This document shows, in pieces, positions 1 through 64,000 of a DNA stretch of 64,000 bases. The position numbers and the translations under genes were made by a program. The notes under the pieces are model-generated. The model was not told the origin of the DNA. It saw only the letters and a list, made by a program, of their open reading frames with translations, and searched no databases. This DNA is from Pseudomonadota bacterium (GTDB lineage Bacteria > Pseudomonadota > Alphaproteobacteria > Rhodospirillales > Magnetospirillaceae): NCBI GenBank assembly GCA_021793155.1, contig JAJYTF010000009.1, positions 94,994 through 158,993 of the forward strand, given 5' to 3'. Position 1 is the first letter of the stretch; the number at the start of each line of letters is the position of its first letter.

Positions 1-240
1 GGCGTGGAGCTGTCAAAGCAACAGCAGACTTCGGATTGGGGGGCGCCGCAGCTTTCGCCGCAGCAACTCGAATATGCCGCCTCCGACGTTCTGCATCTGC
101 ACGCGCTGAAGCGCCGGCTGGATGAGTTGCTCGAGCGCGAGCAGCGCCGCGCCCTCGCTGAAGCCTGCTTCAGCTTCCTGCCGGTCCGCGCCGCGCTCGA
201 TCTTGCCGGCTGGGCCGAGCAGGACATCTTCGCCCATTGA
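1..240 (+). CDS. rnd: Ribonuclease D family protein, C-terminal part (cut by window start)
   Basis: The reading frame is open from the first base and ends in TGA at 240, giving 79 codons of a gene that begins upstream. The segment with SDWGAPQLSPQQLEYAASDV followed by LHLHALKRRLDELL is the usual end of the DEDD 3'-5' exonuclease domain of the RNase D family: the Y-x-x-x-D of the fifth motif is visible as YAASD. No HRDC domain follows, which fits the short RNase D-like proteins of alphaproteobacteria rather than the long E. coli form. Expected role is 3' trimming of tRNA and other stable RNA in the cytoplasm. The missing N-terminus prevents checking the other catalytic acids. Confidence 0.8.
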   Translation, partial: GVELSKQQQTSDWGAPQLSPQQLEYAASDVLHLHALKRRLDELLEREQRRALAEACFSFLPVRAALDLAGWAEQDIFAH

Positions 241-283
241 TTTGACCGGCCTCGCAGGGCGACGCATATTGCAGGTTGGAGCC

Positions 284-57457: not shown

Positions 57458-57832
57458 TCACCGGAAGTTCAGCGGAACGACCAGATTGACCGAGGGCGCG
57501 ACCGGCGGTGCCATGATGACCGGCGGCGGCGCATACATGGCAGCCGGCGGCGCCACCATGACCGGCGGTGGCGCGTACATGACGGCCGGCGGCGCCACTA
57601 CGACCGGCGGAGCGCCGTAGACGTAGCCGGGCGCGCCATAGCCGTAGTAGCCGCGATAATGCCCGTACCACCCGCGTCCGCCCCAGCCGCGATGGTGCCA
57701 TCCATAGCCACCCCGCCAGCCGTCATGGGCATCTGCCGGTGTCGCGTCCAGACCGCCAAGAACGGCGGCGAGAACACCAAGAGTCAGCAACAGCCGTTCG
57801 ACTCCCCGGGAACCCGCCATCGGGATCGTCAT
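57458..57832 (-). CDS. Exported Gly/Tyr/Pro-rich repeat protein
   Basis: 124 aa. The signal peptide (LLLTLGVLAAVLGGLDATPA) is followed by a Gly/His/Trp/Tyr-rich stretch with GWRGGYGWHHRGWGGRGW, then three 14-residue repeats of the form Y-A-P-P-P-V-x-x-A-P-P-x-x-x, coded by a 42-bp DNA period near 57516-57600. Resembles small envelope-associated proteins of unknown function seen in many alphaproteobacteria. Confidence 0.75.
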   Translation of the reverse strand: MTIPMAGSRGVERLLLTLGVLAAVLGGLDATPADAHDGWRGGYGWHHRGWGGRGWYGHYRGYYGYGAPGYVYGAPPVVVAPPAVMYAPPPVMVAPPAAMYAPPPVIMAPPVAPSVNLVVPLNFR

Positions 57833-58055: not shown

Positions 58056-58868
58056 ATGGCTGAAAGAATGCGGGAGTTGCAGGTGGAGCCCAGGCATCCG
58101 TCCGATTCTCCGGAAGAATTCGTCGAGCAGATCCGCAAGGAATTCGTCGACGAGGCCGTCGAGACCGTCCAGACCCTGGATGTAATGCTGGATGCCGGCC
58201 GCCACGGGCGTGCCGATCCAGCGGATTTGGTCACCGCCTTCCGCCGCTCCGCCTTGCAACTGCGCGGGCAAGCGGCGAACCTCGGGTTCCGTGGTCTGTC
58301 TGCCGTCGCCCATCGGCTTGACGAATATCTCACCGCGGCCCGCGACCCGTTGCCGCCGCGGACCTGGCCGGATCTGCAGGCGTTCCTCGACGTGATGCTG
58401 CAGTTGGTGGAGGGCGGCCAGCCGGCGGACGCCGATCCCTCGGCCATGGTCCGCCGCCTGCCGCCAAAACTGGGCTTCGACCTTGGCGACATCGAGGTGC
58501 GCAATGTCGAGGTCATGCTGGTCATGCCGCCGGGCACCCAGACCCACTTCGTCGAGCGCGAATTGCAGCAATGCGGCTACCGGGTCTCGGTGGTGCCCGA
58601 TACGGTCCTGGCCTTCGCCATGGTGGTGCAGACGATGCCGGATCTGGTCATCGTCTCGGCGGTGATGCCGGGTTTGGATGGCATCGATTTTGCCATCGGG
58701 CTGACGGCCATGCCGTCGACCCGCAACATTCCCATGGCGGTCATCACCAGCCTGGCTTCGGACGACGAGCGGCTGAAGCTGCTGCCGCGCAAAGTCCCGA
58801 TTCTGCGCAAGGGGCCCAGTTTCGGGGACGACTTGTTTGCCGCGCTCGACAACCTGTTCCTGATCTGA
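58056..58868 (+). CDS. Degenerate Hpt-receiver protein without phosphoacceptor residues
   Basis: 270 aa from ATG 58056 (TTG 58044 with AGGGG upstream is an alternative). The N-terminal helical region (about 20-120) looks like an Hpt domain: LVTAFRRSALQLRGQAANLG aligns with the AH-x-LKG-x-A-xx-G motif, but the His is Leu67. The C-terminal part (about 150-270) is a receiver fold: PDLVIVSAVMPGLDGIDFAI has Ser201 where the Asp should be, and the N-terminal acidic pair is missing (VEVMLVMPPG). The conserved Lys remains (ILRKGPSFG). So it cannot carry phosphate by the usual chemistry. It is alone on the plus strand between exported-protein genes; partner unknown. Confidence 0.7.
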   Translation: MAERMRELQVEPRHPSDSPEEFVEQIRKEFVDEAVETVQTLDVMLDAGRHGRADPADLVTAFRRSALQLRGQAANLGFRGLSAVAHRLDEYLTAARDPLPPRTWPDLQAFLDVMLQLVEGGQPADADPSAMVRRLPPKLGFDLGDIEVRNVEVMLVMPPGTQTHFVERELQQCGYRVSVVPDTVLAFAMVVQTMPDLVIVSAVMPGLDGIDFAIGLTAMPSTRNIPMAVITSLASDDERLKLLPRKVPILRKGPSFGDDLFAALDNLFLI

Positions 58869-59265: not shown

Positions 59266-60090
59266 CTATTTCAGCAGCGAAAGCTTGGCCTGTTCGGCCT
59301 TGATCGAGGTTTCCAGGGCTGCCGCCGCCGCCGCGCGGCTGGCCCGCAGGCCGGCCAGGGTGGTGGACTCCTGCACTATGTCGGACTGGCTGAGGGTCTG
59401 GGCCGTGCCCTGATCGGTCAGGATGGTGCTGGAGTTGATGGCCTGAGCGGTGTTCACCGCCGCCATCGGCGCGCCGAACCCGGCCAGAGTTGATTGGACG
59501 GTGCTGATGGCGGTGTCGAGTGATCCGATGGTAGCCTGGATGGCCTCGGACGAATTCCAGTTGGCGGAAGTCAGCCCCAGGCTGGCGGAATCGGAGGCGA
59601 CTCCGTTGACCGTCAGCGTGCTGCCGCCCTGGCCGCCGCTGGGCAGCGACAGCGTGCTGGGGATGGCCGAGACCAGGTTGATGCCGTTGATCCCGGCATT
59701 GGATACCAGATTGTTCACCTGCCCGAGCAGGCTATTGTATTGGCTTTGCAGGTCGCCGCGCAGCGACTGGCTGGGATTGCTGAGCGCATCCTGCGCGGCG
59801 TTGCGCATGGCCTGCAGCACGTTGTTGACGCTGGACAGCGCGCTGACCCCCAGGGACAGCGAGCCCGAAGCCAGGCTGACGCCGGGTTGGGCGGCAGTCA
59901 GGCTGGCCGCCTGGGTATTGTAGGCCAGTGCCGCCGCATAGGCGCCAGGGCTGTCGGTCAGCAGGGATTGGTTCTTGCCGGATGACAGATTCCGCAGCGA
60001 TTTGTCGGTCTTCCACCACAAGGTATTGAGCGAATTGATCGCGGACGCGGAGCCGATGGGAGCGGACAAGGCGGGGATTCCTTCCTGCAA
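59266..60090 (-). CDS. Flagellin-like protein
   Basis: 274 aa. The N-terminus carries flagellin D0/D1-like heptads: SAINSLNTLWWKTDKSLRNL, SSGKNQSLLTDSPGAYAAAL and SVNNVLQAMRNAAQDAL. The C-terminus ends with a helical segment (DIVQESTTLAGLRASRAAAA, AALETSIKAEQAKLSLLK) like the flagellin C-terminal D0. The middle is short and Ser/Gly-rich. No flagellar genes are near. It could be a minor flagellin or a filament-like paralogue. Confidence 0.65.
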   Translation of the reverse strand: MQEGIPALSAPIGSASAINSLNTLWWKTDKSLRNLSSGKNQSLLTDSPGAYAAALAYNTQAASLTAAQPGVSLASGSLSLGVSALSSVNNVLQAMRNAAQDALSNPSQSLRGDLQSQYNSLLGQVNNLVSNAGINGINLVSAIPSTLSLPSGGQGGSTLTVNGVASDSASLGLTSANWNSSEAIQATIGSLDTAISTVQSTLAGFGAPMAAVNTAQAINSSTILTDQGTAQTLSQSDIVQESTTLAGLRASRAAAAAALETSIKAEQAKLSLLK

Positions 60091-60105
60091 GGAGACCTCG
60101 AATTA

Positions 60106-60368
60106 GCATCATCATCGCATGGCCGGACAGGGAATCAAGTGATGCCCGTCACATGGCGGGAAGGCCATTGCAGCTTCATCGACCTGTCGGGAATTATCCA
60201 TTTGACGAACGCCGAAACCTTTGATGTCGAAGACTTCATCCTGGTGGACGACAGCAATCGACAGGCGTGGAACAGCTGTCATCGAGCACCCTGTCACGGA
60301 GTTAGCCGTCATCACTTGGTTCCGCTGGCGGCGCGATCTTGGATCGCATTTCGAGTGCACCCGAAGCG
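60106..60368. other. Stretch without a recognisable gene
   Basis: Between the flagellin-like gene and the IS3 remnant I see no supported gene. Short frames exist on both strands but neither has a ribosome-binding site or family resemblance. Confidence 0.5.
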
Positions 60369-60576
60369 TGACCTGCCCCCGGAAATTTCCTCCAGTCTGA
60401 GTTAGAGTCCGCCCTTATGGAAGGACGGACGAATGAAGCGCAGCAGGTTCACGGAAGATCAGATCATCGGCGTGCTGAAGGAGCATGAGGCGGGCATGAA
60501 GACCGCCGATCTGTGCCGCAAGCACGGGATCTCCGAGGCGACGTTTTACAACTGGAAGGCCAAGTACGGGGGGATG
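60369..60576 (+). mobile_element. Left-end remnant of an IS3-family element
   Basis: Begins at a plausible IS3 terminal sequence TGACCTGCCCCCGGAAATTT and contains the first part of orfA. The copy breaks at about 60576, where unrelated sequence starts. No right end or second ORF is present. Confidence 0.6.
60433..60576 (+). pseudogene. IS3-family transposase OrfA, N-terminal fragment
   Basis: The first 48 codons (MKRSRFTEDQIIGVLKEHEA, then MKTADLCRKHGISEATFYNW, KAKYGGM) are the helix-turn-helix end of an IS3 OrfA. The match stops sharply after YGGM and the frame continues into a tRNA-like sequence, so the gene is truncated. Confidence 0.85.
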
Positions 60577-60615
60577 GTCATGGGGCTCTTCCGTGCCACA
60601 TCCCCGGCACAGCAC

Positions 60616-60663
60616 TGGCGCACCCGGCGAGATTCGAACTCACGACCTCTGCCGCCGGAGGGC
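60616..60663 (-). pseudogene. tRNA-Arg 3'-half fragment
   Basis: Read on the minus strand this is the 3' part of a tRNA-Arg from the anticodon loop (CTCCG) through GGCAGAGGTCGTGAG, GTTCGAATC and the acceptor CGGGTGC with CCA (position 60616). The 5' half is absent here. It lies right after the IS3 fragment. Confidence 0.75.
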
Positions 60664-60756
60664 CCGCGCGTTTTCCATTCTCCCCCTTTGCATCCGGCAT
60701 CGGGATGCGCTATACGGTCCCTTCCACCGCGCCGGTTGCCGGCCGGTTCATGAGCA

Positions 60757-60798
<42 letters not shown>

Positions 60799-61047
60799 TG
60801 ATGTCAAGGGTGTTTCGTGAGTGAGTAACTGAAGAAGGGTTCGTGAAAACAGTAGCTTGAGTGATCCTGAGACGCCGCCCAACCCCGAAAAATTTTCGCG
60901 TAAGCACCGCGTAAGCAGTTTTCGGAGAACGGGCGCGGAATAGCGGATAATGGGGCGTAGTCGCCCGGCGGCCGCGATGTAGGATTGGTTTGTGATGGCC
61001 GAATCCGTTGACCCTCATAGGTCGGTCGGGCTAGGCGAAATTGAGAT
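60799..61047. other. Gene-free stretch between tRNA-Arg copies, with an 11-bp-period direct repeat
   Basis: No gene is supported. CGCGTAAGCA occurs twice (60897-60906 and 60908-60917) with 11-base spacing, and the sequence is visibly less GC-rich than the core. It may be what is left of an element that used the tRNA as its attachment site. Confidence 0.4.
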
Positions 61048-61124
61048 GCACCCGTAGCTCAGCTGGATAGAGCGCCACCCTCCGAAGGTGGAGGCCACAG
61101 GTTCGAATCCTGTCGGGTGCGCCA
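61048..61124 (+). tRNA. tRNA-Arg (anticodon CCG)
   Basis: 77 nt with encoded CCA. Acceptor GCACCCG pairs with CGGGTGC, D arm AGCTCAGCTGGATAGAGC, anticodon stem CCACC/GGTGG around CTCCGAA (anticodon CCG), T arm ACAGGTTCGAATCCTGT. The gene is complete. Confidence 0.96.
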
Positions 61125-61467
61125 TCTCCTCATTGCTAAGGTTTGGGTCGAGCGCTCGCTCGAGATTTTCTAATGAAATGAAGAAGCTACAGGCGGACTG
61201 TGGCCAGCGCGCTGCTAACAGCACTCGTCGTCGCCACAAATGTGAGCGATCTGTAAGCTGGCGGGACGTATGGGCCAGGATACAGGGACTCGTCAGCGGT
61301 ATACTCCCCACGATGGGTGCCGCTCAGGGATACCTTCCGAACCGTGATGCGGATTGGCATTAGTGTCCAGGTGCCAGACGGCAATTCCCGTTGCGCGGGC
61401 GTGATCGGTCGAAATGCCAGAGCCGGCACTATCCCATCTCGAACGCGCGGCCTATCAGGGAGCTCTG
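61125..61467. other. Stretch without a recognisable gene upstream of the metal-type regulator
   Basis: 343 bases with no supported ORF. GC content appears lower than the core. I see no integrase gene and no clear operator inverted repeat. Confidence 0.5.
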
Positions 61468-62142
61468 ATGAAGATCCTGATTGTCGAAGATGAACGCAAG
61501 ACCGTCGCTTACCTGAAGCGTGGTTTAGAGGAGAACGGCTTCGTCGCAGACGTCGCCGATGATGGGGACGATGGCGCCCATCTCGCACAGACAGGATCGT
61601 ATGACTTAATTATCCTGGACGTAATGCTTCCTGGCCGCGACGGCTGGAGCATCATCGGCGAGTTGCGTCGTCGACAGATAGGGACGCCGGTCCTGTTTCT
61701 CACCGCGCGCGATGCGGTGGACGACCGAGTTAAGGGGCTTGAGCTTGGAGCCGACGACTACCTCGTCAAACCATTCGCCTTCGCCGAGCTTCTCGCGCGC
61801 GTGAGGACAATCCTGCGCCGCGGACCTGTACGACAGTCGCAAGTATTAAGTGTCGCCGACCTTGAGCTGGATCTGCACCGACATCGCGCGGTGCGTGCTG
61901 GACGTCCCGTCGATCTTACGCCGAAAGAGTTTCAGCTATTGTCGCTGCTGATGCGCCGGGTCGGCGACGTCCTGTCCCGAACCCTGATTGCGGAGCAGGT
62001 CTGGGACATCAGCTTCGACAGCGATTCGAATGTCGTCGAAGTCCACATGCGCCGGCTGCGCGCAAAAGTTGACGAACCCTTCAATTGCAAACTCATCCAT
62101 ACTGTCCGCGGTGTCGGCTATGTTCTCGAACAGCGAACCTGA
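61468..62142 (+). CDS. Heavy-metal-type DNA-binding response regulator (CusR/CopR/IrlR-like)
   Basis: 224 aa OmpR-family regulator. [20 protein letters not shown] is the typical CusR/IrlR start; phosphoacceptor Asp51 in [16 protein letters not shown]; Lys in [10 protein letters not shown]; winged helix with [15 protein letters not shown] and [16 protein letters not shown] 61468 follows AGGGAG. The partner kinase overlaps its end by 23 bases. Metal specificity cannot be read from the sequence. Confidence 0.9.
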
Positions 62143-63580
62143 AATAGCCAACAAGGCAGAACCACGATCCTGGCGATCGGTGTCGATCGCCGTGCGTATG
62201 ACTCTTTGGTATGCGCTTTCCGCTTTCGCGCTGATCGTAGTCGCAACCGGACTGCTTTACTGGGTGCTGGTCAATAGCATGTATCGGGAGGATCTTCGCG
62301 ATCTCGCCGACAACCTCAACAACGCGCTGCTCCTGCTCGCGCCTTCACCAACCGCGCAGTACCAGGCGTCAGCGGAGCAAAGACCTTCTTGGGCACCCCC
62401 TCACCAGCCGGAAATCTATCTGCGCGTCCTTAATGCCGGAGCACATGTCCTAACCCAGACGCCGGGAATGGCGCGACAGCTTCCGCCGCCCTCGGAGGCG
62501 GAACTCGCCGCGATCGAGACGCGCGATGGCGAGACGCGCGACATCGTTTCGCCTTCCGGGAAGCCGTTCCTGAGCCTGATTATCCGCATACCTGGCCAGA
62601 GCGCTGGCGAGCGGCCGCGCTTCATGCAGGTCGTGATGGACCGAGAGCACGATGAGTATCTCCTGGCGCGATACCGCGAGCGCCTATGGCTTGTCCTCGG
62701 GGCGTCACTTATTCTCTGCTCGCTTGGCGGATACCTCATCGCCAGGAGCGGTATGCGACCGATCGAAAATATCGATCGCACCGCAGCACGCATCCGGGCA
62801 ACAACCCTGCATGAGCGAATCGAATCTCAGGGCTTGCCCACTGAACTCTTCGGGCTGGCCGAAACCTTCAACGGGATGCTTGACCGGCTGGAGCAGTCCT
62901 TTCGGCACGTCTGGCAGTTTTCCGACGACGTGGCGCATGAACTGCGGACGCCGATCAATAATCTGCGTGGCGAAATCGAGGTGGCGCTCAGCAAGTCCCG
63001 ATCCGGGGAAGAATACCGCAGCGTTCTCGAATCGTGCCTGGAAGAAAGCGCGCGCATTTCCCGTCTCATAAAGACGCTGCTGTTTCTTGCCCGCTCGGAT
63101 ACCGCGATGGACGCCCTCGAACGCGAGAAGATCGACGTCGGTCAGGAGTTGCAGAAGGTCGAGACCTATTATGAGGCCGCTGCCGAGGAAGCAGGCGTCA
63201 AACTGAACCTTTCTGCGGCCGATGGCGTCTACGTCAATCTCAATCGTACCCTGTTTCAGCAAGCGGTCGGAAATCTGATTGCAAACGCTATCGCTCACAC
63301 TTCGGTAGGCGGCCTCGTGAACCTCGCCGCGCACGCCGAGCGGAATGGGCTGACCGTGAGTGTCCGCGACACCGGATGCGGGATTGCGCCGGAGCATCTG
63401 CCACGCGTCTTCGAACGATTTTACCGAGTCGATCAGGCACGTGGGGGCTCGTCGCAGAATGCAGGGCTGGGCTTGGCGGTGGTCAAGAGCATCGCGACCC
63501 GACACGGTGGCCATGTCGAGATCGACAGCGAAGTTGGATGTGGCACTGAGGTAAGGCTGATTTTGCCCGCGTCCGCCTAA
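62120..63580 (+). CDS. Heavy-metal sensor histidine kinase (CusS/IrlS-like)
   Basis: 486 aa. Membrane segment 1 around [20 protein letters not shown], a periplasmic loop to about 190, segment 2 ([20 protein letters not shown]), HAMP, and the core with His273 in [34 protein letters not shown] and [11 protein letters not shown] plus [12 protein letters not shown]. The start ATG 62120 overlaps the regulator gene. Confidence 0.92.
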
Positions 63581-63690
63581 CTGCTTATGCGAAACTCTCT
63601 CTTGTAGATTACGATTTCGTTATCTGAGCGTCAGCGCTGCTTCAGCTAACCCCGCTATACTCGGCAAATCAACTGGCTGTCGGGGACCGA

Positions 63691-63918
63691 ATGCAGCGGT
63701 GTCGCATGATCTTGATCGCCGCTTGCTTCGTCAGTCCTCTAATGGGGTGTGCAAGCTATAACCCCGCACCGATTTCACCGGCCGAAAACGCGTATTCACT
63801 TGACAGCCGGAGTCTCGATAACTCGCGGCTGCAAGAATTCATCGCCGCAGAGCTCGGCAGCGCTGACCAAAAAGATCGTAAGCATCCGGCCGAGGCCGCC
63901 TACCGCTCTTCCCCGTAA
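63691..63918 (+). CDS. Small lipoprotein, possibly the N-terminal piece of a TolC-type efflux protein
   Basis: 75 aa. A lipoprotein signal ends LMGC (Cys19), followed by ASYNPAPISPAENAYSLDSR and SLDNSRLQEFIAAELG. The pattern CA-x-Y-x-P-x-P-[IL]-x-P...SLD-x-x-x-L-x-x-F-[IL] is that of the N-terminus of metal-efflux outer-membrane TolC/CzcC-like proteins, which often lie beside such a two-component pair. The rest of that protein is missing, so this may be a truncated gene. Alternatively it is a genuine short lipoprotein. Confidence 0.55.
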   Translation: MQRCRMILIAACFVSPLMGCASYNPAPISPAENAYSLDSRSLDNSRLQEFIAAELGSADQKDRKHPAEAAYRSSP

Positions 63919-63953
63919 TCTGGCGTAATCCCTACCAGCACAAGATGCCGCGG

Positions 63954-64000
63954 TTATTTCTTGGCGCGCGGCTTTCGGGTCCAGCGGCGGGCAAGCTTCG
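63954..64000 (-). CDS. Possible 3' end of a minus-strand gene (cut by window end)
   Basis: A minus-strand frame enters from beyond the window and ends with KLARRWTRKPRAKK and TAA at 63954. The basic tail is protein-like but only about 15 codons are visible. Confidence 0.25.
   Translation of the reverse strand, partial: KLARRWTRKPRAKK

Follow-up and report, generated by a model that had tools for sequence, protein, structure and literature searches.

AHP6, a pseudo-phosphotransfer protein of plants, is an Hpt that lacks its His. Pseudo-receivers and His-less Hpts are already known kinds of bacterial protein according to a 2025 review (PMC12632262). It puts the share of sampled bacterial Hpt domains without the site at 0.9% (90 of 10,312) and that of receivers at 2.0%, and it calls the switching mechanisms of bacterial pseudo-receivers a mystery. 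One receiver-like protein with a described action is Osp, in which the acidic pair and the Lys are missing; as described in PMC9430884, it binds the transmitter domain of CckA and inhibits the kinase activity. A survey of Azospirillum (PMC4618731) treats Hpt proteins in general terms alone. In searches of one open-access library, none of the titles and first lines of abstracts that were listed dealt with a stand-alone family lacking both sites.

The gene described here lies at 58056..58868 on the + strand of the window, by which we mean the whole stretch of 64,000 nucleotides that was analyzed, and it encodes a two-domain protein of 270 aa with an Hpt-like and a receiver-like part. Its start codon is uncertain, the candidates being ATG 58056, ATG 58068 or GTG 58083, and the database copy of the protein (P0002) has 261 aa. 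The Hpt-like part, residues 19-119 (58110..58412, +), matches the Pfam Hpt family (PF01627) with 32.1 bits against a cut-off of 24.6 (E 1.4e-7) and has CheA P1 as its best sequence match (2ld6, profile match at 1.1e-7); the structure model predicts helices at residues 19-49, 55-75, 79-93 and 103-119. The receiver-like part, residues 151-268 (58506..58859, +), matches Response_reg (PF00072) with 27.7 bits, slightly below the cut-off of 30.2, and has PleD as its top match by sequence. An earlier sequence-only reading of this DNA had proposed an Hpt-receiver fusion, and the four helices of the one fold and the (beta-alpha)5 arrangement of the other are both predicted, with the relative placing of the two halves unsure (pTM 0.56). 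Because the structure matches listed all covered the receiver half, it is sequence profiles and the predicted helices that support the assignment of the Hpt half. In this protein Pfam gave no cyclase, GGDEF or other output domain, and four family members had no NCBIfam match over the cut-off among the best matches, at most 25, listed for each. The protein falls under the definition of a pseudo-receiver, a recognizable receiver without key catalytic residues, that is given in PMC12632262.

Both phosphoacceptor residues are replaced. In the translation of 58056-58868, the segment ...RRSALQLRGQAANLGF... carries Leu67 (58254..58256, +) and the segment ...PDLVIVSAVMPGLDG... carries Ser201 (58656..58658, +). 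In CheA P1, a Lys, a His and a Glu form a network around the phospho-His. Alignment to the P1 domain of Thermotoga CheA (1tqg) places its phospho-His at Leu67 and its Lys, Gly, His and Glu at Arg70, Gly71, His86 and Asp89 of our protein, so that Arg70-Gly71 (58263..58268, +) are the kept +3/+4 positions of the HxxKG signature. In a structural alignment of the model (150..270) on RR468 (chain 2..122), Asp53 corresponds to Ser201, and residues 9/10 correspond to Met157-Pro158 (58524..58529, +), which replace the acidic pair; the receiver Thr and Lys are kept as Thr231 (58746..58748, +) and Lys252 (58809..58811, +). The sequence-only reading had named Leu67 in place of the His, Ser201 in place of the Asp and a lost N-terminal acidic pair, and all three are borne out by the translation and these alignments. 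That the replacements at both acceptor sites exceed chance is confirmed.

A sequence search with a limit of E 1e-3 returned 484 proteins, and a profile search, which scored only the 7998 candidates sharing most words, returned 609, the best 120 being listed in each case. The alignment of close relatives consists of the window protein and the 119 other proteins that matched it best, at 59-73% identity to it. In all 120 rows Ser201, Met157, Thr231, Lys252, Arg64, Gly71 and Arg87 are invariant, and Pro158 is present in 114/120. Position 67 is Val in 66 rows, Leu in 44, Met in 8, Ile in 1 and His in 1 (P0047), while His86 is kept in just 94/120. Conservation of the two replacements among orthologues, which the earlier reading had made its check, therefore holds fully for Ser201, whereas at position 67 it is the hydrophobic character (119/120) that is conserved and not the Leu itself. 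Averaged over columns, entropy is 0.63 bits for the receiver half and 1.29 bits for the Hpt half. It falls to 0.30 bits in the nearly invariant receiver helix alpha-1 (residues 161-172; 58536..58571, +), 0.33 bits in alpha-5 and 0.21 bits in the alpha-3/beta-4 loop, and the C-terminal LFLI (58854..58865, +) is invariant.

The genome itself holds nine matches to the window protein, two of which are full-length family members, namely the window gene and a paralogue (G000:C46). The paralogue is 40% identical to the window protein; its acceptor positions hold Leu and Ser, and it too is without the acidic pair. Its Pfam match is to the receiver alone (28.0 bits, below the cut-off), and the same two-part fold is predicted for it (pLDDT 85.2, pTM 0.75). 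The other 13 Hpt matches in the genome (E up to 0.001) all carry the His, 10 as judged by motif and 3 by eye. A PhyR-like fold was considered and seems doubtful: when Foldseek matched the paralogue to PhyR over the whole chain, the rmsd was near 18, and the window protein has no Pfam sigma match corresponding to the sigma-like N-terminal domain of PhyR.

Members of the wider family were collected from named genome contigs (55 loci) and from genomes of the order and class. From the 191 members that scored over 60 bits we removed three fragments and collapsed 45 duplicates, and the window protein brought the set to 144 distinct full-length members. Position 201 is Ser in 121 of these, Ala in 10, Gly in 5, Asn in 4, Thr in 3 and Gln in 1, and it is Asp in none. 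Position 67 is His in 38, within an HxxK/R-G motif in 33 of them, and 106 members have no His. In a quick IQ-TREE run with columns 67 and 201 removed and a midpoint root drawn, a tree with long branches and 42 weak forks, seven changes of His state are needed and five are forced by well-supported branches. The window gene sits in a clade of 79 rows (support 99), 78 of them His-less, and the second copy (L002) in a clade of 27 rows, 25 of them His-less. The His-bearing L160 nevertheless lies inside the 79-row clade, and P0047, also His-bearing, groups with His-less members in the 120-row alignment and was not in the tree; their His residues may be regains. The simplest reading of these sequences is that the sampled family probably diversified only after the Asp had been lost, and that the His was lost later, repeatedly. 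The sequence-only reading had taken the two changes as a designed-in loss of phosphotransfer, and of that claim the absence of both acceptors in this protein stands; the losses themselves look like separate events, 38 members without the Asp having kept the His. No member of the 144 has both His and Asp, the pattern that the sequence-only reading had named as the mark of a decaying copy.

We divided the family into class A, the 78 His-less members that score over 240 bits against the family profile (the window protein included), class B, the 28 other His-less members, and the remaining 38 His-bearing ones. Among pairs with 25-40% identity in the Hpt half, the receiver halves of class A share 63% identity on average (1462 pairs), compared with 52% for class B (207 pairs) and 32% for the His-bearing group (568 pairs), a contrast whose size is approximate because the pairs are non-independent and the score limit of class A favors similar receivers. 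K/R at +3 together with G at +4 is found in 60/78, 2/28 and 33/38 members of the three groups, respectively, and Lys252 in 78/78, 20/28 and 21/38; class A also has Ser201 in 76/78 and Thr231 in 78/78. The dN/dS ratio is low in both halves for 20 close pairs of relatives with dN under 0.15, the 17 His-less pairs among them giving 0.01-0.21 for the Hpt half and 0-0.13 for the receiver half; the other 27 of the 47 pairs listed (dN 0.15 or more) were set aside because synonymous sites were saturated, and the window copy, having no unsaturated pair, is in none of those used. These sequence comparisons show stronger constraint on the receiver half than on the Hpt half among His-less members.

The absence of the residues for canonical phosphotransfer leads us to infer that phosphate is not passed on by the protein. 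Judging from its sequence, it may act as a decoy, scaffold or docking platform, as had been suggested. We consider it an even call whether it is a phospho-blind adaptor that binds relay partners rather than passing phosphate. In active receivers, the face that docks on the kinase or Hpt helix bundle includes alpha-1 and the beta-5/alpha-5 loop. The receiver half would dock on the helix bundle of a histidine kinase or Hpt protein by its near-invariant alpha-1/alpha-5 face, the Hpt half, with the Arg and Gly beside the lost His kept, could dock on a receiver domain, and the occupied docking sites would block or re-route phosphotransfer. RR468 residues 13, 14, 17 and 21, which are mutated in 4ja2 (a structure titled for a rewired interface), correspond to 161, 162, 165 and 169 here; 162 and 169 are invariant (120/120), 165 is Phe/Tyr and 161 is Ala/Thr/Ile. 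We favor the phospho-blind adaptor because the phosphotransfer residues are absent while residues 162 and 169 of the docking face are invariant, and because Osp inhibits a kinase by binding it. Against it, self-association, or contact with the protein's own Hpt half, could explain the conservation of alpha-1/alpha-5 just as well, gene neighborhoods give no family-wide partner, and L160 and P0047 bear a His yet belong with the His-less group. More doubtful is an extension to the whole family, in which loss of the Asp, followed by repeated loss of the His, would have produced a phospho-blind plug that binds a kinase and a receiver simultaneously, so that relay flux would be set by occupancy alone.

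The main rival to the phospho-blind adaptor is self-assembly, in which the dead receiver would be a dimerization or oligomerization module, somewhat like the pseudo-receiver of PleD, and the helical half would contact a target with no kinase bound. PleD is the best receiver sequence match, and there is a weak alignment (9.3 bits; DLVIVNA vs DLVIVSA) to the second of its receiver domains, the pseudo-receiver. Alpha-5, the alpha-3/beta-4 loop and the C-terminal LFLI are, moreover, conserved as much as alpha-1, and FrzS binds its partner via an alpha-3/beta-4/alpha-4 face according to PMC12632262. We nevertheless regard self-assembly as rather unlikely, as the protein has no cyclase or other output domain and this explanation leaves the kept +3/+4 residues of the Hpt half unaccounted for.

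The gene neighborhood bears on a further explanation. No neighbor in the window is an obvious relay partner: upstream, on the opposite strand, are a small ORF (57458-57832) without a Pfam match and a universal stress protein gene, and downstream is a gene with a flagellin N domain. The latter (59266-60090, -) is flagellin-like, with 274 aa, a Flagellin_N match and no Flagellin_C match. Further along, at 60001-64000, GC drops from about 66% to 59%. Here a short ORF (60433-60753) that by eye resembles an IS3-type transposase OrfA is followed downstream by an OmpR-type regulator and by a histidine kinase of the HAMP/HisKA type; this is possibly an acquired segment. The pattern TTAA-N7-TTAA, which we take to be the CtrA site pattern, as upstream of osp, is absent upstream of the window gene; it occurs in 1/142 upstream regions of the family, against a background of 0.0014 per 380-bp window, and a loose CtrA pattern occurs in 15/142, a count without a computed background. 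For a family-wide comparison, 114 candidate members lay on flanked loci, 94 of them with 3 kb on both sides and 76 below 75% identity, and the 152 genes adjacent to these 76 were compared with an equal number (152) taken from a pool of 281 genes at a distance of three or four genes, on homemade gene calls that missed some genes (at L039 a CBS-type gene was not taken as a neighbor). Among the 25 families listed per half for the 76 loci, no partner domain was enriched in adjacent over farther genes: Hemerythrin was counted 5 vs 4 times, Response_reg 2 vs 6, GGDEF 3 vs 1, and Guanylate_cyc 2 times vs none among the farther-gene families listed, where single members may go unlisted. Signaling genes near single members include a CheZ-like gene (L118), short or globin-linked MCPs (L149, L089) and hemerythrins.

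Linkage within particular lineages suggests that the protein could instead be a cofactor that binds and tunes cyclic-nucleotide enzymes, namely, in magnetospirilla, a CBS-PAS-GGDEF-EAL protein and, elsewhere, a class III cyclase with GAF-GAF-PAS domains. A class A copy is present in 21 of 23 genomes of the same taxonomic family, the others being one with class B alone and one 0.9-Mb genome without any. Of 18 genomes of this taxonomic family that have a CBS-PAS-GGDEF-EAL match over 1000 bits, 16 carry it in divergent orientation to the class A gene, the two matches being about 165-257 bp apart; in one of the other two it is at 1.1 kb and in the other on another contig. Named contigs of Magnetospirillum and Paramagnetospirillum (L049, L047) also show the divergent arrangement. 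The cyclase occurs in 90 of 199 genomes of the order, and a hand comparison among the matches listed finds it no more than 3.3 kb from a family gene in 7 genomes, which belong to 3 genera, the adjoining members being His-less class A in g22 (4 genomes), His-bearing in g73 (2) and another in g39 (1). However, neither is linked in the window genome, where the nearest CBS-type relative (53% identity) is on contig C34 and the cyclase on C14; most of the 90 cyclase genomes show no link among the family matches listed, the cyclase link was first noticed and counted afterwards, and the family-wide neighbors give no support. We therefore think this explanation quite unlikely. On C34, a 172-aa receiver protein (L098, 9024-9542, -) is convergent with the CBS-PAS-GGDEF-EAL relative and reads FCEADLDTMTG near the usual acceptor position, and it may be another atypical receiver. 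In several Rhodospirillales loci (L198-L211) a coiled-coil gene is repeatedly paired with a GAF-GAF-PAS-cyclase gene, and in some genomes a small receiver-like gene adjoins the two.

Phosphorylation elsewhere, with Ser201 or His86 as substitute acceptor, is very unlikely: Ser201, Thr231 and Lys252 are indeed kept throughout nearly all or all of class A, but with the acidic pair lost a Mg site is not expected, and His86 corresponds to an ordinary position of CheA P1 and is kept in just 94/120 rows of the close relatives. That the gene is merely degenerating and functionless, to which the loss of both phosphoacceptors and the acidic pair and the splitting of one relative's family gene (L036 496-1314, the same as L079) by an in-frame TAG might point, is extremely improbable and was rejected on the evidence of the homologues, of columns that stay invariant at 59-73% identity, of the low dN/dS of close pairs and of the presence of class A copies in nearly all genomes of the taxonomic family, so that the earlier view of a pseudo-relay protein is upheld, the loss being ancient, conserved and constrained.

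Pseudo-receivers are common. Both losses in one small protein, together with His-bearing relatives as natural controls, offer a clean way to test if dead relay domains act by occupancy. The phospho-blind adaptor that we favor can be set beside several known systems. Like its Hpt half, AHP6 is an Hpt without the His, and AHP6 inhibits a phosphorelay; AHP6 is, however, a stand-alone Hpt in which the receiver is absent, and a relationship to the window protein is not shown. Around the site of the lost His, our protein still has the Lys/Arg, the His and the acidic residue of CheA P1, but it has neither the phospho-His nor the kinase domains of CheA. PleD has a receiver pair that includes a pseudo-receiver and provides the best receiver match, but it has a GGDEF output and the window protein has none. 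Bacterial pseudo-receivers likewise have a receiver fold without the catalytic residues, and their mechanism is mostly unknown according to PMC12632262; the one described here differs in being fused to an Hpt-like domain, in being the more conserved half and in having kept the Thr and Lys. In comparison with Osp as described in PMC9430884, our protein has two domains, the Hpt-like half being an addition, no upstream TTAA-N7-TTAA site, and a receiver that has lost the Asp and kept the Lys, whereas Osp is a single domain that has kept the Asp and is missing the Lys. Osp of Rhodobacter sphaeroides is, like the window protein, alphaproteobacterial, receiver-like and without the acidic pair; it is not phosphorylated and acts by binding a kinase, and we propose the same for the window protein.
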